This document shows, one piece after another, positions 1,622 to 12,561 of a stretch of DNA of 12,561 nt (positions within the stretch are counted from its first letter, which is position 1; each line of letters begins with the position of its first letter). Under the pieces are notes generated by a model, which searched no databases, was not told the origin of the DNA, and saw only the letters and a list, made by a program, of their open reading frames with translations. Where the stretch lies: NCBI GenBank assembly GCA_002341815.1, contig DDOT01000029.1, forward strand, positions 6,526 through 19,086. The letters run 5' to 3'. The DNA is from Thiobacillus sp. UBA2487 (GTDB lineage: Bacteria; Pseudomonadota; Gammaproteobacteria; Burkholderiales; Sulfuriferulaceae). The translations under genes were made by a program, and so were the position numbers.

Positions 1622-1939
1622 ATGACGGATAAGCCCCTGATCATACGTACCAGCGAAGATAACTTGCGCCGCAAACTTGAGGAGTCGCGCAAGTTGACTC
1701 GGCGAGATTTTTACATTGAGCCACACGCCGTTCCGAACATCCTGTCTGAGGACATCATTCGTATCCGCAATCAATTCAATCTGTCGCGCCCGTTGTTCGC
1801 CCGTTGTCTGCGTGTCAATGTGCGCACCCTGGAGAACTGGGAGCAAGGCCGAGCGCAACCCAATGCGCAGGCGGTTTTGCTGTTAAGGATGGTGGAACGA
1901 TATCCCGATACCATGCAACGCTTGTCCGATTTGGACTGA
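1622..1939 (+). CDS. HTH (XRE/HigA-NadS-like antitoxin type) transcriptional regulator
   Basis: A 105-residue DNA-binding protein. Residues about 43-80 form a helix-turn-helix of the antitoxin class. The pattern SEDIIRIRNQFNLSRPLFAR followed by VNVRTLENWEQGRAQPNAQA matches the family signature of a recognition helix before NWEQGRxxP, as in HigA, NadS and the MqsA C-terminal domain. The end, LLLRMVERYP, is also typical. The N-terminal 40 residues are a short basic extension without a known fold. A GAGAG ribosome binding site at 1611-1615 supports the ATG at 1622. Such proteins usually pair with a RelE/HigB-type toxin, but no toxin gene lies directly before or after; rpmE is divergent and virB8 begins 113 bases downstream. 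Its position just before the secretion/pilus operon suggests it is a dedicated regulator of it. That role is inferred. Confidence 0.85.
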   Translation: MTDKPLIIRTSEDNLRRKLEESRKLTRRDFYIEPHAVPNILSEDIIRIRNQFNLSRPLFARCLRVNVRTLENWEQGRAQPNAQAVLLLRMVERYPDTMQRLSDLD

Positions 1940-2052: not shown

Positions 2053-2697
2053 ATGTTAAACGAGTTTGCCGAACAGCTAAACAGACATTACAAGGATCGG
2101 TTAACCGCCAACCGGTTGGGTCTATTGTTGATGGGCTCGATTGTGTTGAATATTCTGCAAGGTATTGCAGTAGCAGGATTGTTTCCGTTGAAAGAGCGGA
2201 TTCCTTATTTTGTGGTGACCCGAAGTGAGACTGGTGAAGTGCATGTGTCTGATCTGGCGACCCAGCGCTTTAATCCAAGCGAAATGAATGTAAAGTATTT
2301 CGCTGCCAGGTTTATTCGACAGTTGTTAACGATTGATCCTTATCGCTCTAAAAGTGAATTACTGCCGGCGGCACATACGACGCTGTTGAGTAAAGGCAAG
2401 GCAGAATTTGCGCAATTTCTGGCAACCGACCATACGCTGGAGAAAATGGATAAAGACCCTTCTTTAGCAAGACAAGTGCAAATCCAGCGCATCATTATTT
2501 TGCCCAGTGCCGAAAATGTCATTTCAGCCGATGTTCGTTTAACGACGCTTTCGGCCGGCTCAGCGCCGTTGACCACGACCAAAACCGTCACCTTGCATTA
2601 TGCATTAACGCCAATCGCAGATGAAAAGCAGGCAATCAATAATCCGATCGGTTTTTACGTGACGCAGTTTTCTATCGATGAGGAGCTGGGGCAATGA
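2053..2697 (+). CDS. virB8: VirB8-family type IV secretion protein
   Basis: A 214-residue bitopic inner-membrane protein. It has a short cytoplasmic N-terminus, one membrane span at about residues 22-43 (RLGLLLMGSIVLNILQGIAV) and a periplasmic NTF2-like domain for the rest. The segment PLKERIPYFVVTRSETGEV right after the span is the usual VirB8 junction (PL..xxPYxVxxxxxTG). The end, GFYVTQFSIDEE, fits the last strand of the fold. VirB8 proteins nucleate the inner-membrane complex and contact VirB9 and VirB10. Length is normal or slightly short. It is the first gene of the long operon and overlaps virB9 by 4 bases (ATGA). The ribosome binding site is weak. A conjugation-type origin is possible, but no transfer genes are seen next to it. 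Confidence 0.85.
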   Translation: MLNEFAEQLNRHYKDRLTANRLGLLLMGSIVLNILQGIAVAGLFPLKERIPYFVVTRSETGEVHVSDLATQRFNPSEMNVKYFAARFIRQLLTIDPYRSKSELLPAAHTTLLSKGKAEFAQFLATDHTLEKMDKDPSLARQVQIQRIIILPSAENVISADVRLTTLSAGSAPLTTTKTVTLHYALTPIADEKQAINNPIGFYVTQFSIDEELGQ

Positions 2698-3509
2698 AGA
2701 TTGGTGTCCTGATCTTGTGTCTGGTGTGGCAATCAACAGTGTTTGCCGGCGAGACTGATCGTCCAATCGCGTTGCCTGCCAATTCCCCATTCACAGGCAC
2801 ATCTACGCCAAAGATTGTCAACTACGACTATGACGCAAACCGCATCTATGCTGTGGTCTCAATGGTGGACATGTTTACCGAACTGTTGCTGCCCGAAGGC
2901 GAGCAGGTTGTTGCCTGGTTCCCTTCAGCAGACGAAAAACGTGGATGGCCTTATCTGGTGTCAGGCGACCATCGTCGCATCATGATCATGCCTCGGCGTG
3001 CCGGATTGCTGAATTCCGGCACATTGGTTTCCAATCTGCATAGCTACTTGCTGTCTTTTCAATCTGTCGCGAACGGCGAGTGGGACCAGCGGGTGAGCTG
3101 GATGGTGTTTGATGTCACGAATGCGCCTTCAGGGTATGAGCAGCAATCGGAAACCCCGGCCATGCCCAATCATCCTGTGCCTGTCAGCAACGCGGGTTCT
3201 GGTCCGACCTTTGCAAATATGAATGTTGCGTACAGCGTGGAAGGCAAGTCGGCGTTTGCGCCGGAAATGGTTGCGGATGACGGGCGATCTACCTGGTTCA
3301 GATTGCCGCAAAAAAATCAGGAAATTCCCGCCTTGTTTGTGCTGGATGAACACGGGATAGGTGAACTGGTGAATTATGTGGTGCAGGAAAAAAATGTGTT
3401 GAAGGCGCAACGGACGTCCAATGCATGGTTGTTGAAGCTGGGCGATGACGAGGTGACTGTGCGGGCCACAGATGCACCCGAATCCTCAACACCTGCGTGG
3501 TTTCGGTGA
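2694..3509 (+). CDS. virB9: VirB9/TrbG/CagX-family type IV secretion protein
   Basis: A 271-residue exported protein with a clear signal peptide (residues 1-18, hydrophobic core VLILCLVWQS, ending VFA). The N-terminal domain (about 38-142) starts IVNYDYDANRIYAVVSMVDMFTELLLPEGE after the lead-in, which is the VirB9 pattern of an Ile/Val-rich strand followed by T-x-x-x-L-x-x-GE. The C-terminal domain (about 171-261) carries VADDGRSTWFRLP, then IPALFVLDEHG and a Leu-Gly turn, the usual VirB9 C-terminal beta-sandwich. Known VirB9 proteins form the periplasmic/outer-membrane ring with VirB10 and the VirB7 lipoprotein. No VirB7-like lipoprotein is found between these genes. It starts inside the virB8 stop and ends 4 bases before virB10, so translation is probably coupled. 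Confidence 0.88.
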   Translation: MKIGVLILCLVWQSTVFAGETDRPIALPANSPFTGTSTPKIVNYDYDANRIYAVVSMVDMFTELLLPEGEQVVAWFPSADEKRGWPYLVSGDHRRIMIMPRRAGLLNSGTLVSNLHSYLLSFQSVANGEWDQRVSWMVFDVTNAPSGYEQQSETPAMPNHPVPVSNAGSGPTFANMNVAYSVEGKSAFAPEMVADDGRSTWFRLPQKNQEIPALFVLDEHGIGELVNYVVQEKNVLKAQRTSNAWLLKLGDDEVTVRATDAPESSTPAWFR

Positions 3510-3513
3510 TGTG

Positions 3514-4851
3514 ATGCCTAAAAAAATCAGCAAAAATCTGGTCTGGCTGATCGCGTTGCTGATGCTTGGCGGCATGGTGGGCGCATATTGGCTTAAATAT
3601 GGCGCTGGGGAAGGTGTGGGTGCCAAGCAAGCCAGGATCAAGGCCACGATTGCCGCACAAGTGGGTAATGATCAACCGGTGAGTGATGCCGACGCCAAAA
3701 AGCAGTTACAGCAAGCCGACCAAACCGTGATGGACGCCTTGGCTAAACAAAAGAATCAGTCGCAACCAGAACACGTATGGCCAAAGACGGCATTGCCGTT
3801 TCAAACCGGCTTGATTCAAGCACCCGATCTGGATCGGTACGAACAGGCGAAACAAGCCCTGATGCAGCAATTGGAAAAGAAAGATAAACAACAGGATGAG
3901 GGTGACAGTTTGCCGCACACATTTGAAGCGCAGGCACTCACGGCCAGTCAAGACGATAATCGCCACGATCTGCCATCCAATACCGGCAATGACGCTGGAA
4001 CTCCGGATGGTGGACGTCGATCGTCGATCAAACCGGTTGCTGATTCCGCAACGTCTGACGTCATCAAGCAAGATGCAACGAGCGGAAACAACGCAGTGGC
4101 AGTCGCACAGCCTGACGCCGATCCCAATCTGAAAATGCTGACCGAGCTGATTGGACGGCAAACGCGGGCGTTGACCGATAGCAATCAAAGCTGGCAACAG
4201 GAACAAGCAAAAACCTCGGCAGCCGGGCATCTGCAAATCCTGCATCCGAGCCAACCGCCCAATGTGCAGTTGTTGCAGGAAGGCAGCGTGGTGCCGTTGG
4301 TATTGTTGAGTGCGTTGAATAACACCTTGCCGGGACATGTCTCTGCACGCGTCACCCAAGATGTGTATGACGCCATCACCGGCGATGCGCTGATTATTCC
4401 GGCCGGGTCAAAATTGGAAGGTAATTATAACCAGAAAACGTTGTTTAACCAGAAACGCATGATGTTGGCGTTTAACCGCCTGATTTTTCCGGATGGTGCG
4501 TCAATTATGTTGGGTGCTTGGGGCGGTAATGATGCGCAGGGGCGTTCCGGGGTGGCAGGTGACATTGATAACCATATTTGGGAACAGCTTGGAACGGGCT
4601 TGTTACTGGCCGCTGTGGATTGGGCGGTGACACCGTCGATGGGCTCAGGAAATGTGGTGGTCAATACGCAAGGCAGTAGCGGTTCATTTGCTGTTCCGGC
4701 GGGACAGGTGGTTAATCAGACCGCGCAAAATATTTTATCGCGCTACCAGAGTCTTAAGCCGGAATTGAACATTCCTGCAGGCACCAAGCTGACCATGACG
4801 GTATTGCAAGATATCAGCATAAAAACCGAAGGAAATGGCAATCATGAATAA
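3514..4851 (+). CDS. virB10: VirB10/TrbI-family envelope-spanning type IV secretion protein
   Basis: A 445-residue protein with a short basic cytoplasmic tail (MPKKISKN), one inner-membrane span (about 8-27) and a long hydrophilic, Gln/Lys/Asp-rich periplasmic linker to about residue 250. The VirB10 C-terminal domain (about 256-445) contains LPGHVSARVTQDVYDAITG, then LIIPAGSKLEGNY, QKRMMLAFNRLIFPDGASI and a final IPAGTKLTMTVLQDI. The stretch LGTGLLLAAVDWAV with the following loop corresponds to the antenna that crosses the outer membrane in known VirB10 rings. VirB10 links both membranes and senses energy use in type IV secretion. The start at 3514 is preferred over an in-frame ATG at 3472, which would overlap virB9 by 38 bases and add a non-family extension; GTG 3511 is also possible. 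It overlaps the next gene by 8 bases. Confidence 0.88.
   Translation: MPKKISKNLVWLIALLMLGGMVGAYWLKYGAGEGVGAKQARIKATIAAQVGNDQPVSDADAKKQLQQADQTVMDALAKQKNQSQPEHVWPKTALPFQTGLIQAPDLDRYEQAKQALMQQLEKKDKQQDEGDSLPHTFEAQALTASQDDNRHDLPSNTGNDAGTPDGGRRSSIKPVADSATSDVIKQDATSGNNAVAVAQPDADPNLKMLTELIGRQTRALTDSNQSWQQEQAKTSAAGHLQILHPSQPPNVQLLQEGSVVPLVLLSALNNTLPGHVSARVTQDVYDAITGDALIIPAGSKLEGNYNQKTLFNQKRMMLAFNRLIFPDGASIMLGAWGGNDAQGRSGVAGDIDNHIWEQLGTGLLLAAVDWAVTPSMGSGNVVVNTQGSSGSFAVPAGQVVNQTAQNILSRYQSLKPELNIPAGTKLTMTVLQDISIKTEGNGNHE
4828..4833 (+). promoter_or_regulatory. Ribosome binding site that fixes the TcpQ-type start
   Basis: GAAGGA lies 10 bases before ATG 4844 but only one base before ATG 4835, so the downstream ATG is the likely start. 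Confidence 0.5.
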
Positions 4852-5770
4852 GATTGTGTGGATCATGATGTTGCTCTTGTTTTGGGCGATACGAAGTGCG
4901 TCAGGGGCCAGTTTGGAGCGTTACGATTTCGCCTATCGGATCAGCGGGGAAACAGAGGCGCGACCGACCCAGGTGTTTGATGATGGGCGCAAATTGTATT
5001 TGCAGTTCGCCAACACGTCGATCTTGCCAACGGTGTATGCCGATGGCGGACAAGGCGATGTGCGGGTAGACGCACACCAGGATTATCCGTATGTGGTGCT
5101 GGATCATTTGTTTAACACCCTGCAAATCCGGGTGAACGGTCACGCCGCATCGATTCATTACGCTGGGGCCAAGGTACATCACCCGGGCAGTACGACGTAT
5201 GGCCAAGCGGCGCCGGATGACGCAGACAAAACGATGCGGGTCGCAGTAGCCGTGCCTGATGCAAGAGCGAACACCGTCAAGACAGTTGCAGAAGCCGCGG
5301 TCACGGTACATACCCCTGATAACGCGGGTTCATTGGCAAACAGCGCAGGACAATCCCGTGCACACACTTTGGTTGAACCATCCGCCCCGGCGCCAGCCGG
5401 GGACGTACCCTCTGTGCAGATGGCAGCGCTCAGCCACCTCAACACGAAAACGGACGCCGCTGAAACGCCCGATCAAAGCCGGAATATCAATCTGTTGGCC
5501 AAGGGTGGGCCAGAAACGGTAAACCAGCCAGCGATCTTACAACTCACCATTCAGACGGGAGACAGTATCCGGTTTCGATTGAGCGACTTTGCAAAGCAGA
5601 ATGGATATTTACTGAATTGGGCGGGAAACGATCTGGTGGCGCGCCAAACAGCGGTATTTTCCGGCACGTCGGCCGAAGCGGTGTTCAATCATGTGTTGAT
5701 GGCCGCAAAAGTGGTTGGCTATTTAAGTCAGGATGAAGAGAAGGTGCTGAATGTGTATGTTAAACCTTAA
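4844..5770 (+). CDS. TcpQ/PilL-type pilus protein with an N-terminal VirB9-C-terminal-like domain
   Basis: A 308-residue exported protein with a signal peptide (about 1-22, MNKIVWIMMLLLFWAIRSAS then GA). Residues about 26-108 resemble the VirB9/CagX C-terminal domain: ARPTQVFDDGRKLYLQF, then LPTVYADGG, VRVDAHQDYPYVVLDHLF and LQIRVNG. A low-complexity Ala/Asp/Thr-rich linker (110-225) follows. Residues about 231-308 match the TcpQ C-terminal domain, with LQLTIQTGDSIRFRLSDFAK, GYLLNWAGND and a final LNVYVKP. In type IVb pili, TcpQ-like proteins are needed for stability and placing of the outer-membrane secretin, which here is the next gene. ATG 4844 is preferred because GAAGGA at 4828-4833 gives proper spacing, while ATG 4835 is too close to it. 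The gene overlaps virB10 by 8 bases and the secretin by 20. Confidence 0.75.
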   Translation: MNKIVWIMMLLLFWAIRSASGASLERYDFAYRISGETEARPTQVFDDGRKLYLQFANTSILPTVYADGGQGDVRVDAHQDYPYVVLDHLFNTLQIRVNGHAASIHYAGAKVHHPGSTTYGQAAPDDADKTMRVAVAVPDARANTVKTVAEAAVTVHTPDNAGSLANSAGQSRAHTLVEPSAPAPAGDVPSVQMAALSHLNTKTDAAETPDQSRNINLLAKGGPETVNQPAILQLTIQTGDSIRFRLSDFAKQNGYLLNWAGNDLVARQTAVFSGTSAEAVFNHVLMAAKVVGYLSQDEEKVLNVYVKP

Positions 5771-7406
5771 AAACGCACGGATTCATTCTCTCAAAATCGC
5801 GTACAACGCTTTGCGGGATACCAGGCAAGCGGCAAATCAAGGCGTTGGCCTGCGATTTTTCACGCCCAAATGGTTGGGCTTGCTGGGGTTGAGTTGCTTG
5901 GTCGGATGCACCACCCAGTCGGTGGACAATCAGAAAATACACGCCGAATCGCAAGCCATGGCAAGCTCTGCCAGTCAGACGCAAGCGCCAGAATGGGGTT
6001 TGCATCATGTGGCGTCCATGACGGAAATGCCTGGCCAATTTGCCGAGCGGCTGGAACCGGGCAGTGAGCAAGGTGATGTGACGGTATCTGCCAGCGGACC
6101 GATTAACGCCCTGTTGCAGCAAGTTGCCGGCAAAGATTACGCCATCTCTTACGTGAATGGGGTGGATGTCAGTCGTCCGACCACGGTATCGGTGCGTGGA
6201 CTAAGCATTCCGGCAGTGCTGCGCGTGGTGGCCGCCAATGCAGGTTATGTCGCTGTCGTGGATGAGAATTCACACAACGTTCTGATTGCAGATCAGGCCG
6301 CGTGGACGTTCCGAATACCCGTGCGCTTGTTGCAGCGCCTCTCAACCCGTTATGGCGTGGATGGTTCGGGTGCAGCCGGTTCCAGTTTGTCATCTGCCGC
6401 CGGCGGGATGGCGGGTGGCGGTTCCGCAGGATCGGGAGGTCAGGGTAGTGGCACAGTCGGTGGAGTGCAGACGCAATTTAACGCGACATCGGCGCTGTCC
6501 ACCAACGGGAGCGTTATCCAGAAAGGCGGGTTAGACGAATTTTTGCAAATGGTGGCCGGTGAGCATGCGTTCGTGTCGGTTTCCAAAGATACCGGCTATG
6601 TCAGCGTGCGAGGCAATGGGGTGGCGTTAAATCGGCTGCACCGGTTCTTGAATCAATTTGTTTACGATAACGACCGACGGGTGGATATCAAGGTTTCTGT
6701 TGTAGAGGTGTCGCTGGACGATGCCAGTCAATTTGGTATTGATTGGAGTCGGGTGCTGTCACCGTTGCAAAATTCAAGTGCGAAGATCGCGTTGAGCGGT
6801 GGGGGTGCCACCCTGATCAACCCCTCATTGACGGTGAATTTTACGACAGCGTCGATCGCCAGTGTGATTAATGCATTACGCACCTATGCCAAGGTATCGG
6901 TATTAACCCAACCTTCCGTTACCGCGATGAACCGGTCACCGGTGGCCATTTTTGATGGCACCAGCATTCCTTATCTGGGCAGCATAACCACGACATCTAC
7001 CCTCAGTTCAACCGCTACCGCGGCGGCAGCCAGTTTTGTTGAAAGTGGCGTCAGCCTGTCAGTCATGCCCGATATTTTGAGTGATGATGAGGCGCAAATC
7101 ACGTTGTCGCCCGTGGTCAGCAATGTGTCCAACATGCAAAGTTTCAGTGTCAGCGGCAGTACCTTGACTGCCCCTGAAACCGTGGAAAAACGCGTGTTGA
7201 TGCAAACCGTTGTGCACAATGGCGAGACAGTCATCTTGGGTGGCATTCGCACGGGGACTAATAATTCGACGTTAACGACGTTGCCGCTGGTACGCGTGCC
7301 GTTGGGCGATAACGCTGATAACAGCGCGGCAGAGGTGGTGATTCTGCTACAAAGCACCGTGGTGCCGCCACGTCGAATCGATACCTTGGTGGCGGAGAGC
7401 TTGTGA
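5751..7406 (+). CDS. pilN: Type IVb pilus secretin lipoprotein (PilN/BfpB/TcpC family)
   Basis: A 551-residue outer-membrane secretin. The lipobox LVGC (Cys53) follows a hydrophobic stretch WLGLLGLSCLVG, but the export signal is unusually long, with about 40 residues before the hydrophobic core; no ATG or GTG nearer to it is seen. Residues about 105-185 form the first periplasmic (N0/secretin-TonB-like) domain, with NALLQQVAG and VSVRGLSIPAVLRVV. A Gly/Ser-rich segment (about 204-238) separates it from a second N-domain (about 255-305, ending NRLHRFLNQF). The secretin beta-barrel domain starts at about 311 (VDIKVSVVEVSLDDASQFGI) and ends with the family hallmark GETVILGGI and VVILLQSTVV. It forms the pore through which the pilus leaves the cell. 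An AAGG site at 5741-5744 supports ATG 5751; ATG 5757 is also possible. It is preceded by its likely TcpQ-type partner and ends in a TGATG overlap with the next gene. Confidence 0.9.
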   Translation: MCMLNLKNARIHSLKIAYNALRDTRQAANQGVGLRFFTPKWLGLLGLSCLVGCTTQSVDNQKIHAESQAMASSASQTQAPEWGLHHVASMTEMPGQFAERLEPGSEQGDVTVSASGPINALLQQVAGKDYAISYVNGVDVSRPTTVSVRGLSIPAVLRVVAANAGYVAVVDENSHNVLIADQAAWTFRIPVRLLQRLSTRYGVDGSGAAGSSLSSAAGGMAGGGSAGSGGQGSGTVGGVQTQFNATSALSTNGSVIQKGGLDEFLQMVAGEHAFVSVSKDTGYVSVRGNGVALNRLHRFLNQFVYDNDRRVDIKVSVVEVSLDDASQFGIDWSRVLSPLQNSSAKIALSGGGATLINPSLTVNFTTASIASVINALRTYAKVSVLTQPSVTAMNRSPVAIFDGTSIPYLGSITTTSTLSSTATAAAASFVESGVSLSVMPDILSDDEAQITLSPVVSNVSNMQSFSVSGSTLTAPETVEKRVLMQTVVHNGETVILGGIRTGTNNSTLTTLPLVRVPLGDNADNSAAEVVILLQSTVVPPRRIDTLVAESL

Positions 7407-8605
7407 TGAAAATACGCCGATTTGCCTGGCCGGGCAGAACGCAGCGCCAACAGACCCAAGCACCGATCACGCACGCATTTGTGCTGGATTGCCGCATTGA
7501 GTCGGGCGCACATTTGTATTACCTGTTACAGCCCGACGGCGACGTGGTTCATCTTGCCGAACCTGTTGAGAACAGTATTGTGGTGTCTGCGGTTTATCCG
7601 CCGGCAGGACGTATGGATGATGAAACGGCTGATGATCACCGCTTTGTATTGCCACGCAAAATGGGCGCATCGCAAGCCGCCGGCTGGTTACAGCGTGAAC
7701 TGGGCTTGTTGGCCCAATTGCGTACGGTGCTATCGGTTGCCAACCCACAGGTAGTGTATGCCTGTATAGCCGGCAAGGTGGAGTCGACCGAGCGGATCGT
7801 TCCTTTTGTATACGCGCTGGAACGTTTGATGGCGGTTGACGGATTGGAAGCGCCTTGCGTAACCGGGGTGCTGTTTGGCGAGAACAGCCTGTTGATTCTG
7901 GTGGCGTTTTCCGGCAACGGGCGGGTGTTTGTTCAAACCTCGGTAGCGCCGGACAATCTGGCGGAAATCATTTCATCGTTTGCCGCAAGTAATGGCGTCA
8001 GCATCGATCTGGCTTCTCTGCCGATTTACACCGGTGAAGAATTGCAGGCTGTTTTGCCAACAATCCCCATGTATCCGCTTCATCCCGAGGTGTTGGGGGT
8101 GTCTTTGCCGACCGTATTGGCTCGGGCAAATGGGGCGGGTGTGGCTTTTTTGATGGTAGCGATGCTGGTCTGGGGGTATTTGCATATGGCTAACCGTGAG
8201 TTGGATCGTAATCTGAAAAAAGTGATGTTGCAGCAACAGCAGGTGGAGCAAGACCGCAATGGTCGTTTGCGTAACAACATGGCTGGTCTTGGACGTGTCA
8301 TGGCGGTTGATTTTGATGCGTTGGTCAGTCATGCGGCTGATTTTTGGGTGGCGGGAGCTCGTCTGGAAAGTATGGCAGCGCATGGTGTGGAAAACCATGT
8401 GGTGATCGTGCCGCTGCATCTTGCGGATTGGGATGCGTCGCCTGTGCAATTGGTAAATGTTCGTCATGTACAGCAAATACCGGCAGGCTGCCGACAAATC
8501 GCTGATGTGCTGAGTAGCAATTTTCATGAATGGCGCATCAGCTATCAATGTGGTTCAACTGCCGCCACGCTGGCAGAGATGGAGCAGGGTGATGCCATTG
8601 ATTAG
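7406..8605 (+). CDS. PilO2-like (R64 PilO type) bitopic type IVb pilus assembly protein
   Basis: A 399-residue protein with a large N-terminal cytoplasmic region (about 1-238) rich in beta strands (THAFVLDCRIESGAHLYYLL, TGVLFGENSLLILVAFSGN), one membrane span at about 242-263 (GVAFLMVAMLVWGYLHMA), then a Gln-rich coiled-coil (LQQQQVEQDRN) and a periplasmic tail. This layout is that of PilO from R64 and of GspL/PilM-N type scaffold proteins that tie the cytoplasmic ATPase to the periplasmic parts. The assignment rests on layout and on its place between the secretin and the ATPase. I cannot see a diagnostic motif. ATG 7406 overlaps the secretin stop by one base, with GGAG at 7394-7397 as binding site; a GTG at 7403 is an alternative. 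It overlaps the next gene by 14 bases. Confidence 0.7.
   Translation: MKIRRFAWPGRTQRQQTQAPITHAFVLDCRIESGAHLYYLLQPDGDVVHLAEPVENSIVVSAVYPPAGRMDDETADDHRFVLPRKMGASQAAGWLQRELGLLAQLRTVLSVANPQVVYACIAGKVESTERIVPFVYALERLMAVDGLEAPCVTGVLFGENSLLILVAFSGNGRVFVQTSVAPDNLAEIISSFAASNGVSIDLASLPIYTGEELQAVLPTIPMYPLHPEVLGVSLPTVLARANGAGVAFLMVAMLVWGYLHMANRELDRNLKKVMLQQQQVEQDRNGRLRNNMAGLGRVMAVDFDALVSHAADFWVAGARLESMAAHGVENHVVIVPLHLADWDASPVQLVNVRHVQQIPAGCRQIADVLSSNFHEWRISYQCGSTAATLAEMEQGDAID
8581..8584 (+). promoter_or_regulatory. Ribosome binding site that fixes the PilP-position gene start
   Basis: GGAG at 8581-8584 lies 7 bases before ATG 8592. The upstream in-frame ATG at 8526 has no such site and would add 22 non-conserved residues read from within the preceding gene. 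Confidence 0.6.
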
Positions 8606-9122
8606 ATCGCGATATGGGTGGCCGATGACGGGACTGGCGCTAATGGCATTATTGCTGCTGCAAATGTTCTTGGTGGATATGCGCTCGTTTCGGCAGATGA
8701 GAGCCGTTCGCACAGACATTCAGCAACGATCGGTTGCGCTAGCCGATGCGATATACCGCAAAGAACGACTGTTTGCCTTGGTGCCGGCTGCGAACGGTCC
8801 GGTGAAACCGGTTGATGAGGTTGCGTTGCTGGGTGGTGTGGTGTTGCTTAATTTGGCCAGAGCCCATCATTTACAGGTTGAGGCCGTTCAGTTGCGCGGC
8901 AGCAGTTTGTCATCCGGGGTGGCTTTGCGCGGTATTGCTGTGCCGGTGACCGGTTCGGGCGGACAAATCAAAAAGGTGGCTTGCGTTATCAAATCAGTAT
9001 TTACAAGTTTGGCGGATCTGCAAGCGTTTGTGCGTGAAATTCCGGGTACCGGTGGATATTTGGCTGCCGTACGTGTGCGTCAGCATGATGCTGTGCTGCT
9101 GGTTAATTTTCTCGGGACCTGA
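8592..9122 (+). CDS. Small bitopic pilus assembly protein in the PilP position (GspM/PilO-like layout)
   Basis: A 176-residue protein with a short basic N-terminus, one membrane span (about residues 12-29, MTGLALMALLLLQMFLVD), an amphipathic helix or coiled-coil (about 30-60, RSFRQMRAVRTDIQQRS) and a small periplasmic alpha/beta domain to the end. In R64 the gene between pilO and the ATPase is pilP, and the layout also matches GspM and the PilO of type IVa systems. Members of this kind form the periplasmic alignment complex between the inner-membrane platform and the secretin. Sequence alone gives no firm family match, so the name rests on context. It is followed 2 bases later by the ATPase gene. 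Confidence 0.55.
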   Translation: MPLIRSRYGWPMTGLALMALLLLQMFLVDMRSFRQMRAVRTDIQQRSVALADAIYRKERLFALVPAANGPVKPVDEVALLGGVVLLNLARAHHLQVEAVQLRGSSLSSGVALRGIAVPVTGSGGQIKKVACVIKSVFTSLADLQAFVREIPGTGGYLAAVRVRQHDAVLLVNFLGT

Positions 9123-9124
9123 TC

Positions 9125-11089
9125 ATGGCGATCTTTATTGGCAGAAACGAAAACCCGATGCGGCAGTCAGTCAGTGACGTGGATCTGTCGATGATTGGTG
9201 CCGCGCTTGACGGGTGCCAACAACCACAAGCCACGCTGAATATACAACAGACGGTGGCACCATTTTGGGTGGTGCTGCCAGAAATGCCGGCACAGCCGCA
9301 GGATTTAGGTTCAACCCATTGCCTGCCCGATGAATCCGTATCGGATCTGCGTCAACAGATGGCCGGATTGGCTGGCGCACCATTGGAAGAGATCCTGACT
9401 GCATTGGGCGCCAGACCGGAGTACGTGCGTGAAGCCTTGAAACGAAAACAGGCAACGCACGAACCATTGCCGGTCATCGTCCGGGATATGGGTTTGATTT
9501 CGCAAGAAATGGTGGCGCGAGCCATAGCACTGCATACCGGTTATGACTATTTCAGTCTGGCACAAGCCGATCAGATGGATATGGCAGTTGTGCGTCGCTT
9601 GCAACAGATTCTGGACACTATCGGATTTCATTACTCAGGGTTTGTGGTGGTGGGTTTCAACGGTAGAAACGGGGTAGTGATTGCCGTTGATTCGCAAGAA
9701 AGGGTCAATGAAGCCAGAAATCTGTTTTTTGATTATCAACCCTCTGTCGTCATTGCATCGGGACAAACCATACTCAAGATTTATCGCAAATATTTTGCCA
9801 ATACCGAACAAGCCTTTAAAACGGCGCTTGCTGCTTATCATCTGGCCACGCAAAAAGGAACCTTGGCAGATGAGCCAGGGCGGGTGTTTCGTGTGATTGG
9901 TACGTTGTTGCGCCACGCCTGCTATGCAGGTGCATCGGATGTGTTTTTATGGTCAACCCGAAAAGTCGGGCAGGTGGGTCTGAAAATCGATGGGAAAGGG
10001 TCGATCTTTACCGTGATCAATACTGACGCCTTCGATTCAATCCTGGAATTGTTGATCAGTTCGTGTGGATTGACAGAGGCCATCAAATTGGGGCCACAAG
10101 AGGCCAAAGTAGAGTTTGTAGGTGCGCCGCCAGAGATACGTGCCGAATTTGATGACATTTTTTCGCGATTTCATTTTCGAATGGAGGCAATTTTGAGTCC
10201 GGCCGGGCGAAAAAATGTGGTGATTCGGATCAACGATGGTCAATCCAGCGAAACCGATTTCAGTGCGCTACCGTTCGACGAGGCGTCGCGTGACATTATT
10301 TTCAACCATATTCACGCGCCAACCGGACTGATCTTGGTGACAGGGCCGACCGGGTCGGGAAAAACCACGACCATGTATTCCATCTTGCGTGAAATCAATC
10401 CGATTCAGCGTCGGGTATTCACCGTAGAAAACCCCATTGAATATCATAATGGTATGTGGATTCAGCATGAATTGCCCCGGCCAAAAATGGAAGGCAACCG
10501 TCGTCAGACCGAGGGCGAGGTTGGTCGTGAATATCTGAAAGCCCTATTGCGCGAAGCACCGGATGTCATTTTGTGGGGCGAGGTACGCGACGACCCGGAA
10601 TTGGTCAAGACGTTGCTGGCGGCGGCTAATACCGGGCATCTGGTGGTCACATCGTTACATACCAACTCTGCTTCTAAAGCGGTCTTGCGCTTGATGGAAC
10701 TGGGAGCGAATCGGGATGCGTTGGCCTCTGTGTTGCGTTTGGTGATTGCGCAGCGTTTGGTGGCTTGTTTGTGTGAACACTGCAAAGTGCCGGATGAGCG
10801 TCTGGAAACCATCCGCGTGTTACGCGAGCATCACATTCATCAAGCCACCCCGTTTGTGGCAGCCGGTTGCCCGCACTGTGGCGATCTGGGTTATCGGGGC
10901 AGGCAAATGATTTATGAAATCATGCCGGTGCATGCAGTGCGCCAATTGATTGAAGATGGGGCCTCAATTTCCCGCATTGAACAGGAGGGGGTGCAAAAAA
11001 CAGAGACCGTTTGGTATCGCGGTTTGAATCTGGTAGCGACTGGTGTGACGTCGCTGGATGAATTAATGATACGGGCGGACAGGAGTTGA
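9125..11089 (+). CDS. pilQ: Type IVb pilus assembly ATPase (PilQ/GspE family)
   Basis: A 654-residue cytoplasmic hexameric ATPase of the secretion ATPase superfamily that drives pilin polymerisation. The N-terminal region (about 84-225) resembles the GspE/MshE N-domain (MGLISQEMVARAIALHTGYD). The catalytic domain contains Walker A GPTGSGKTT (Lys413), the Asp/Glu box region ENPIEYH, Walker B VILWGEVRDDPE (Glu486), a His box GHLVVTSLHTNSA (His505, His512), and a tetracysteine zinc motif CEHC (550-553) with CPHC (582-585), as in GspE/PilB. This zinc motif and the GEVRD box place it with assembly (not PilT-type retraction) ATPases. Residues 1-80 are an extra low-similarity N-terminal extension. 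ATG 9125 has GGGA 8 bases upstream. The neighbour on the right is the platform protein it acts on. Confidence 0.93.
   Translation: MAIFIGRNENPMRQSVSDVDLSMIGAALDGCQQPQATLNIQQTVAPFWVVLPEMPAQPQDLGSTHCLPDESVSDLRQQMAGLAGAPLEEILTALGARPEYVREALKRKQATHEPLPVIVRDMGLISQEMVARAIALHTGYDYFSLAQADQMDMAVVRRLQQILDTIGFHYSGFVVVGFNGRNGVVIAVDSQERVNEARNLFFDYQPSVVIASGQTILKIYRKYFANTEQAFKTALAAYHLATQKGTLADEPGRVFRVIGTLLRHACYAGASDVFLWSTRKVGQVGLKIDGKGSIFTVINTDAFDSILELLISSCGLTEAIKLGPQEAKVEFVGAPPEIRAEFDDIFSRFHFRMEAILSPAGRKNVVIRINDGQSSETDFSALPFDEASRDIIFNHIHAPTGLILVTGPTGSGKTTTMYSILREINPIQRRVFTVENPIEYHNGMWIQHELPRPKMEGNRRQTEGEVGREYLKALLREAPDVILWGEVRDDPELVKTLLAAANTGHLVVTSLHTNSASKAVLRLMELGANRDALASVLRLVIAQRLVACLCEHCKVPDERLETIRVLREHHIHQATPFVAAGCPHCGDLGYRGRQMIYEIMPVHAVRQLIEDGASISRIEQEGVQKTETVWYRGLNLVATGVTSLDELMIRADRS
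11081..11085 (+). promoter_or_regulatory. Strong ribosome binding site for the platform protein
   Basis: AGGAG lies 5 bases before ATG 11091 and overlaps the last codons of the ATPase gene. Confidence 0.7.
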
Positions 11090-11090
11090 C

Positions 11091-12290
11091 ATGAGGTTTG
11101 CCTACCGTTTCCGCGCGCACAATCAAATCTCCCGTGTGGTTGGTGGGTTGATTTATGCCGAGAATAAAAATGCAGCATGGGCGATGCTCAAGCGTTCCGG
11201 TCTCAGGGCTTCGCAAGTGGTGCTGGATTTATCCGGCACCCTGAGTGGGTTGCATGGAAAATTCGACATTCGTGAGTTGGTGAGATTCTACCGGACGATC
11301 GGTCGTCGGCTGGAAGCAGGTAAACCCATGATCAGCGGCATGGATGCTGCCATTACGTTCACCAGCGATCCATTGTTGCAGAATGCGCTGCGCCTGATGC
11401 AACAGCGTTTGATGGATGGGGCACGTATGGCTGATGCCATGATGGTGGCCGGTTTTCCCGAACGGGATCAGCAAGTGATCAGAGCGGCTGATGTGGCGGG
11501 CAAGCAAGGGCAGGCGTTCATTCGGTTGGCTGACGATGTGGCTCGCGCCGATCGCTTAAACACCGCTGTGCAGTCGACTTTTTTACCGATGAAAGTTCTC
11601 GCGGTGGTGGGATTGGCGGGCATGTATGCTGCCATGGCATGGCTGTCTCCGACCATGATTCGTTTTTTTACCCAGTGGAATACGGGAAATGCGCAGCATC
11701 TGCCTTTCACGATCCGGTGTTATAACGCGACTGCTTTGTGGGTGACCGATCATAAGTGGCTGGCGGGATTGCTGGTGGCGCTCATCATCGTGCTGGGCAA
11801 ACAGGTTTTGGCCAGTGCCGTGATGGGGCGTTTGGCTGATTTTTGGCAAAACTGGCGCATGATTTCCGAAAAATCCGATCATTCATCGGCGTGGACCTCG
11901 TTCAGCTTGTTATATGACGCCGGTGGCATTCCTGCATACGAATCCGCTGGCATTGTACGCAAAAGTTGTCGTCGTTCCGATACGCAAGATATGTTTCATC
12001 GATTGGACAAAACCTTGCGCTCGGGTATCCCGATTTCACTCGCGGTGGCGCGTTCCGGCTTTCCTGACTATGTAACCAATGGGGTCAAATCGGCGGAAGA
12101 GGCCGGCGCATCACTGGCTGAAGGGTTATTGGGCATGGTCTCAGACCTTGAACAAGATGTCGAGGTGATGACCGATATGCTTAACATCAAGATTACGTAT
12201 CTGTCGCAGATTTTTGGCGGCGCGATCGTGAGCCTGTTTTTCTACGTCACGTTGTATCCCATGTATATCCAGATAGGTCAGAAATTATGA
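11091..12290 (+). CDS. pilR: Type IVb pilus inner-membrane platform protein (PilR/GspF family)
   Basis: A 399-residue polytopic inner-membrane protein. Two repeats of the GspF-type cytoplasmic helical domain are visible. The first (about 60-165) has ELVRFYRTIGRRLEAGKPM and VIRAADVAGKQGQAFIRLAD. The second (about 270-370) has SLLYDAGGIPAYESAG and VKSAEEAGASLAEGLLGMVS. Membrane spans are at about 168-188, 223-243 and 374-393. The platform is turned by the assembly ATPase to extract pilins from the membrane. Length is normal for PilR and a little below the 400-odd residues of GspF/PilC. It sits 1 base after the ATPase gene and overlaps the prepilin gene by 4 bases (ATGA). Confidence 0.92.
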   Translation: MRFAYRFRAHNQISRVVGGLIYAENKNAAWAMLKRSGLRASQVVLDLSGTLSGLHGKFDIRELVRFYRTIGRRLEAGKPMISGMDAAITFTSDPLLQNALRLMQQRLMDGARMADAMMVAGFPERDQQVIRAADVAGKQGQAFIRLADDVARADRLNTAVQSTFLPMKVLAVVGLAGMYAAMAWLSPTMIRFFTQWNTGNAQHLPFTIRCYNATALWVTDHKWLAGLLVALIIVLGKQVLASAVMGRLADFWQNWRMISEKSDHSSAWTSFSLLYDAGGIPAYESAGIVRKSCRRSDTQDMFHRLDKTLRSGIPISLAVARSGFPDYVTNGVKSAEEAGASLAEGLLGMVSDLEQDVEVMTDMLNIKITYLSQIFGGAIVSLFFYVTLYPMYIQIGQKL

Positions 12291-12561
12291 GCAGCGATTG
12301 GCGATGCGTACTTTCCGTTGGTTATCAGGCTGGTTTCAGCCTGGTGGAATTGCTGGTCGCCATTACCATTCTTGGTGTGATGACGGTAACCACGATGGCT
12401 GCGCTGGGTGGCGGGGCGGATAGCAAAACGGCTGCACTCAACGCAAAAATGAATGAGGTGGCCAATGCGGTGGTGATGTATCAGAAAACAACGGGTTGCG
12501 TGCCATCGTCCGTCGCCGTGTTGTTCGACAAGACCCAGGCCGGCGCTGCCCATAATTTTTG
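12287..12561 (+). CDS. pilS: Type IV prepilin (PilS position), 3' end outside the window
   Basis: The first 91 codons of a prepilin are present. The leader is 16 residues (MSSDWRCVLSVGYQAG), then the cleavage site G|FSLVELLVAITILG, with Glu at mature position 5 and a hydrophobic N-terminal helix (FSLVELLVAITILGVMTVTT). The prepilin peptidase cuts after Gly16 and usually methylates the new N-terminus. After the helix comes KMNEVANAVVMYQKTTGCVP, with a cysteine likely to form a disulfide further on. The leader is longer than in type IVa pilins (5-7) and within the type IVb range, but the first mature residue is Phe, the type IVa choice. Being directly after pilR, it is most likely the major pilin as in R64. 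A minor pilin cannot be excluded. Confidence 0.85.
   Translation, partial: MSSDWRCVLSVGYQAGFSLVELLVAITILGVMTVTTMAALGGGADSKTAALNAKMNEVANAVVMYQKTTGCVPSSVAVLFDKTQAGAAHNF

Follow-up and report, generated by a model that had tools for sequence, protein, structure and literature searches.

What the VirB8, VirB9 and VirB10 genes at the head of a type IVb pilus operon are doing there is the question raised by a 12,561-nucleotide stretch of the Thiobacillus sp. UBA2487 genome (assembly GCA_002341815.1, contig DDOT01000029.1, positions 6,526 to 19,086; G000:C165:6526-19086 in our genome set), which as a whole is called the window here. The genome, a 1.78 Mb draft of 188 contigs that is 93.9% complete, most likely belongs to a sulfur-oxidising bacterium of the genus Sulfuriferula (Betaproteobacteria). 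As a rule, type IV secretion systems (T4SS) are considered apart from type IV pili, each as a machine of its own. In nine Sulfuriferula genomes, including this one, the operon of the window (locus 1) occurs together with a second locus that holds the rest of a VirB set (locus 2). Judged by sequence, the window would then be one half of a two-locus envelope machine that derives from a conjugative transfer region joining a P-type (VirB) T4SS to a type IVb pilus and has since been domesticated, a reading to which we give slightly better than an even chance; the domestication and the joint assembly of both halves are what we infer beyond the gene content.

The ten genes of locus 1 in the window lie on the forward strand and begin with homologues of VirB8 (2053..2697; Pfam VirB8 5.6e-24, above cut-off), of full-length VirB9 (2694..3509; Pfam CagX 1.6e-35, NCBIfam VirB9 1e-20, the latter below cut-off) and of VirB10 (3472..4851, with an in-frame ATG at 3514 as a possible later start; Pfam TrbI 2.2e-43), whose best relative in the PDB is TrwE (5.1e-21 with a profile of our VirB10 alignment, A1). 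The type IVb pilus parts that follow are a secretin (5751..7406; Pfam Secretin 3.7e-18, with sub-threshold matches to the MshL and PilN families of NCBIfam) preceded by a partner of TcpQ/BfpG type with a Pfam TcpQ match below cut-off, a PilB/GspE-like assembly ATPase (9125..11089; Pfam T2SSE 9.2e-70, NCBIfam PilB 7e-67, below cut-off) with the Walker A motif GPTGSGKT, a PilC/GspF-like platform protein (11091..12290; Pfam T2SSF 1.2e-19) and a first prepilin, only the start of which is in the window (12287..12561; Pfam N_methyl 2.4e-7; full frame L006:18812-19408, 198 amino acids). The secretin carries a lipobox-like LVGC at residues 50-53 and has BfpB as its best PDB relative (7.3e-18). Between secretin and ATPase lie a PilO2-position protein (7403..8605), with homologues at the same place in relatives and an unusably poor structure model (pLDDT 53), and a PilP-position protein (8526..9122) with one hydrophobic segment, whose homologues within the genus are placed likewise; these labels, proposed in an earlier note on this DNA, are for both proteins names by position only, with no match to a relevant Pfam or NCBIfam family. 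None of the ten window proteins passes an NCBIfam equivalog or subfamily cut-off, the short prepilin domain model alone passing, and for this reason they are regarded as diverged members of their families. The earlier note was right that a VirB8-VirB9-VirB10 run directly precedes pilus genes, as the Pfam matches confirm, and that no junction exceeds 4 bases, as at all nine the genes overlap or stand no more than 2 bases apart. Its seven pilus genes are likewise present, but the set does not end with them: the operon runs past the window edge on the same contig, with gaps of at most 10 bases, through two prepilins recognised by Pfam and one prepilin-like gene recognised by eye, a second, PilT-like T2SSE ATPase, a protein whose match to PilP is weak (0.024) and misses the cut-off, and a large protein that the contig end truncates.

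The same note had taken VirB8-10 for a minimal core lacking VirB4, VirB6 and VirB11, a view that is rejected by locus 2, which was revealed by a weak match on G000:C115 when VirB4 was searched in the 18 genomes of the genus set. The order there is VirB1 (Pfam SLT 2e-24), VirB11 (T2SSE 6.4e-37), a VirB2-position protein, VirB3, VirB4 (CagE 2.8e-6), a VirB5-position protein and VirB6 (TrbL 1.4e-9). VirB3 is identified through its homology (3.9e-39) to the copy in genome G008, which matches Pfam VirB3 at 4.9e-8, and the VirB2- and VirB5-position proteins, with no relevant Pfam family, through position and homology among relatives. This order is shared by G005, G006 and G015, by G002 and G009 as far as the contig end, and, by reading frames, by G008 and G004; VirB11, VirB4 and VirB6 are labelled in G010. 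The VirB11 frame of G015 (L078:6879-8102) gives a weak match (2.4e-36 versus about 1e-130 in relatives), with only 163 codons aligned with G005, and is perhaps affected by a frameshift or by an assembly error in the draft.

Locus 1 is carried by nine of the 18 genomes (G000, G002, G004, G005, G006, G008, G009, G010 and G015), all of them drafts of 20-290 contigs and 64-99% completeness, and every carrier also has the locus 2 VirB4, with best matches of at least 1046 bits to our VirB4 alignment (A4). Seven of the nine non-carriers have no match to VirB10 (A1) or VirB4 (A4), and the remaining two (G001, G014) have distant ones only, with VirB4 at no more than 385 bits. The two loci are on separate contigs in G000 and share a contig in G010, about 165 kb apart. 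Trees of VirB8-9-10 and of VirB11 plus VirB4 have the pairs G000+G010, G006+G009 and G008+G004 in common with 100% support; other nodes are weak (71-77% in the former tree, 25-59% within the genus in the latter). The transfer genes do not form one mobile unit, as they are divided between two loci with rpmE and chromosomal-looking genes as neighbours. Gene names of neighbours are read from translations, except for rpmE, which rests on Pfam. In G000, G005, G006 and G010, locus 2 adjoins three genes, one GNAT-like, one apaH-like and one for a rep/uvrD-like helicase, and in G008 and G004 it is located elsewhere; at locus 1, the left neighbours are common to G000 and G010, while G006, G008 and G009 share response-regulator and TonB-like genes.

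The VirB8-10/pilus adjacency is whole in seven of the nine carriers and broken by contig ends in the other two, G009, whose contig ends inside the gene for a VirB9 C-terminal domain (CTD) protein, and G015, where VirB10 and that gene are on different contigs. Beyond the genus, the VirB10 alignment gave 80 matches at 1e-30 in 54 of 300 genomes of the order. Twenty further regions were read, taken from the top of the 75 matches ranked below the first five, with G260:C1:3360212 and G229:C1:552975 skipped; in 15 of them VirB8-10 is accompanied by a pilus secretin match, another breaks off at a contig end behind the adaptor-position gene, and four (L115, L127, L130, L131) have no pilus match. With the same adjacency found in another family (G025) and on named plasmids, the two blocks belong together, as the earlier note had supposed, and a chance juxtaposition is rejected by the carriers, G025 and the 15 regions. 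Viewed from the pilus side, adjacency is not universal: of 34 TcpQ loci, only 11 have a VirB10 match at 1e-30 no more than 10 kb away. These are in 11 genomes, out of 29 in the sample of 300 that are positive by a TcpQ model that misses some diverged copies.

As to the origin of the machine, in three regions (L118, L119, L128) VirB11-3-4-5-6-8-9-10, adaptor, secretin, ATPase, platform and pilin form one contiguous run. The Sulfuriferula split point is the VirB6/VirB8 border of this run, where G025, with the order kept, has about 8.6 kb of other genes. VirB4 is on another contig than VirB8-10 in five of the six genomes of genus g13, though separate contigs are no proof of a split; in the sixth, G076, it was not found. 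TraD is near VirB4 in G119 and G282. In the flanks fetched for 14 of the 20 regions, a TraI_2 relaxase and TraD stand beside the cluster by Pfam in G073:C132, which also has an integrase, and in G064:C12, by Pfam and phmmer respectively in G065:C2, and by phmmer in G232:C8 and G232:C112. In G177, G103:C31 and G231 the relaxase match is only weak, G289 and G103:C23 show TraD by itself, and neither was seen in the sequence fetched around G073:C212, G253 and G076 nor on one listed G119 flank. The clusters of G073:C132, G064:C12 and G065:C2, like that on the Azonexus hydrophilus NCP973 plasmid, resemble the Sulfuriferula genes in having VirB11, VirB4 and VirB8-9-10, most also VirB3, 5 and 6, then secretin, ATPase and platform, with a CagX-bearing protein that is clear in G065 and weak in G073 and Azonexus. 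They differ in being one contiguous cluster and, in the three genomic elements, in carrying TraI_2 and TraD. A full set with a relaxase, in which the earlier note saw the mark of an ordinary conjugative element, is thus present in relatives, but no relaxase of the three families searched was found in the window genome. On Variovorax sp. SRS16 plasmid 2 (L157), pilus genes of the window type come after an F-type Tra set; such pili thus join F-type machines too.

The three families are PF07514, PF03432 and PF08751, which we take to be MOBH, MOBP and MOBF. Each was found in none of the nine draft carriers, in a search that did not extend to MOBQ, MOBV or other families, and each does occur elsewhere in the genus, in 2, 4 and 3 genomes respectively. 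The VirD4-like coupling protein (PF02534) has no match in six of the nine drafts. A plain conjugative element on the window contig is not supported, as its genome has no match to the three relaxase families. This absence, together with the division into two loci, would also suit an integrated element that no longer has a function and is decaying, but the window frames are open, gene order is kept wherever contigs allow, and all but two of 22 gene comparisons (G008 versus G004, 14 genes; G005 versus G015, 8 genes) give a ratio of nonsynonymous to synonymous substitution (dN/dS) of 0.04-0.22, so that we regard decay as very improbable.

What could join the two halves is the protein encoded at 4835..5770, which the earlier note had called a TcpQ/PilL-type gene. 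It does have a Pfam TcpQ match (1.4e-4, below cut-off) in its C-terminal part, but is in fact a fusion with a VirB9 CTD in front, matching CagX profile positions 112-190 at 2e-13. Profile and fold matches give a VirB9 CTD at about residues 28-118, a long disordered linker and a TcpQ/BfpG-like domain at about 232-311, for which BfpG is closest both by profile and by Foldseek. The window's own VirB9 and this protein show no local similarity hit by phmmer. In clusters with a window-type VirB10, the adaptor-position protein has a CagX match that exceeds the cut-off in L112, L128 and L129 but not in L158 (1e-6) and L119 (0.008). The suggestion that VirB10 acts as scaffold or gate for the pilus hereby gains a concrete candidate, while the role itself remains a proposal. 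In four other proteins (P0059, P0061, P0062, P0065), two of them named from Paraburkholderia, a VirB9 CTD is joined to a lytic transglycosylase domain.

In the working that we propose, VirB8-10 and the locus 2 proteins would build a VirB envelope complex and the pilus set a retractable pilus, and the adaptor would tie the secretin of the pilus to the outer ring of VirB9 and VirB10, with its VirB9 CTD in the T4SS ring and its BfpG-like domain on the secretin; it would thereby bring VirB9 CTDs to the secretin, or else a BfpG-like ring to the T4SS core. The symmetries of the rings may differ (each chain is present 17 times in 9u5s, chain A 14 times in 3jqo), a mismatch that the long flexible linker could bridge. 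Extending and retracting through the secretin, the pilus would capture a surface or a cell, at which the VirB complex would then carry out contact-dependent secretion or adhesion. This function is our first choice, modestly ahead of its rivals, because no relaxase was found. That the fusion protein physically joins T4SS core ring and pilus secretin into one envelope complex, in Sulfuriferula a stable, chromosomal, non-conjugative organelle, is put forward tentatively, and we hold it to be more doubtful than probable.

Several observations count against the reading in these terms. The VirB9 CTD and TcpQ parts are separate genes in the seven other carriers that show both, L042 has a CagX-TcpQ protein with no adjoining VirB8-10, and constraint is weakest in the VirB9-CTD protein, which accounts for both exceptions in dN/dS (0.51 and 0.28, the former including an uncertain start that overlaps virB10). 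The linker is disordered, and the adaptor was modelled as a single chain. By VIA Z the C-terminal domain ties BfpG (9.7) with the N0 domain of a type III secretion system secretin (8.9), so that it could decorate a ring, as Xanthomonas VirB7 does, rather than bind the secretin. Outgroups fall inside the Sulfuriferula sequences in the VirB11 plus VirB4 tree at 50% support, and a single origin of locus 2 is therefore not shown by the tree. As all carriers are drafts, a missing relaxase or coupling protein weighs less than it would in closed genomes. PF02534 does occur in three carriers, on contigs other than both loci, next to an HTH_36 gene that it follows in G000:C158 (L132) and with an integrase nearby in G008:C15 (L133) and G015:C100 (L134), so that the machine may still move something. 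It is possible that L132-L134 represent a mobilisable island able to use the VirB machine in trans. The apparatus would then still be a conjugation machine, provided with relaxase and coupling protein by the island, and its pilus would stabilise mating pairs as in IncI and IncI2, a role for which the TP114 pilus is needed in broth (PMC9045228). Against the null results for the three relaxase families and, in six carriers, for the coupling protein, we consider this unlikely.

A weightier alternative, quite possible although it falls short of an even chance, is that there are two independent machines whose operon is shared for co-regulation only, the pilus finding a target on which the T4SS acts later with no physical contact. 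Behind the VirB8-9-10-VirB9CTD-TcpQ module of G008 and G004 (L031, L032) stands another kind of pilus set, IncI-like and with proteins that match those of the IncI-like plasmid pND6-2, which brings a PilV-like gene and a further TcpQ gene with a stronger match; the halves are therefore exchangeable. Pilus sets also adjoin F-type and I-type T4SS genes, and R721 and Limnohabitans pTEGF4 link a P-type T4SS to pil genes with a TcpQ protein that has no CagX match. Independence is harder to square with the CagX matches in adaptor-position proteins of the five regions listed above.

R721, an IncI2 plasmid of the same group as TP114, is also among the closest known arrangements, with a transfer region that combines P-type VirB genes (MPF_T by MOB-suite) with those of a type IVb pilus. 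Its virB1-2-3-4-8-9-10-11 and VirD4 genes lie between pilL/pilM and pilN, contrary to the claim that known pil clusters are free of VirB8-10; it is unlike the Sulfuriferula system in being typed conjugative, with a MOBP relaxase, MobC and a VirD4-type protein. T4SS with type IV pili on mobile elements (IncI, PAPI-1, IncI2) are thus already known, as are VirB8-10 inside a pil region (R721). PAPI-1 and R64 (IncI) transfer DNA by T4SS components and a type IV pilus working together, but according to PMC12857230 (section 21) PAPI-1 has clear T4SS homologues only of VirB4 and VirD4, and IncI plasmids have a Dot/Icm-like T4SS.

T4SS that do without VirD4 are described in section 20 of that source for Bartonella Trw, Bordetella Ptl, Brucella VirB and Helicobacter ComB, with adhesion, protein export or DNA uptake proposed or shown, although none is described there with a type IV pilus operon. 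As six carriers have no coupling-protein match, periplasmic substrates in the style of Ptl, or a purely adhesive role as proposed for Trw, fit better than conjugation. Were the pilus and a ComB-like VirB complex instead to pull DNA into the periplasm, the lack of VirD4 in these carriers and of the searched relaxases would be shared with ComB, and the PilT-like ATPase would be at hand; however, the ComB type is defined there by having neither VirB11 nor VirB5 (PMC12857230, section 20), whereas VirB11 and a VirB5-position protein are present here, and uptake seems improbable.

Likeness to the bundle-forming (BFP) and toxin-coregulated (TCP) pili lies in the secretin, closest to BfpB, and in the C-terminal domain of the adaptor, which comes closest to BfpG; both BfpG and TcpQ act on the secretin of their own system (PMC4971541). 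Differences are the VirB9 CTD that the partner protein has in front here and the presence of VirB8-10 in the operon. A T4SS outer-ring component is joined to an N0-type domain in Xanthomonas as well, but there it is VirB7 that bears the N0 domain (PMC3093366), whereas here a second VirB9 CTD bears a BfpG-like one.

In the open-licence literature, a search that was not exhaustive found no paper on a VirB9-CTD/TcpQ protein as a link, nor on a split chromosomal version or a T4SS in Sulfuriferula. A protein combining a T4SS ring domain with a secretin-partner domain would be a concrete answer, for a class of conjugative elements, to the question of how a captured cell passes from pilus to T4SS, to which Sulfuriferula would add a split, apparently domesticated T4SS that retains its pilus and for which no relaxase was found.

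The large protein at the 3' end of the window operon has no Pfam family and 11 database relatives, none functionally named. Two large 3'-end genes (L007:4849-6231, L082:8536-11831; 556 and 542 amino acids in G010), also with no Pfam family, encode candidate tip or mating-contact proteins; relatives of the first recur near cluster ends in L138, L139, L158 and L159. To the left of the window operon lie rpmE (ribosomal protein L31; Pfam) and, immediately 5' at window 1622-1939, a small XRE/MqsA-like gene with a weak MqsA-type match. A gene resembling the latter by eye stands immediately 3' of the cluster in G010 (L082:11862-12176).

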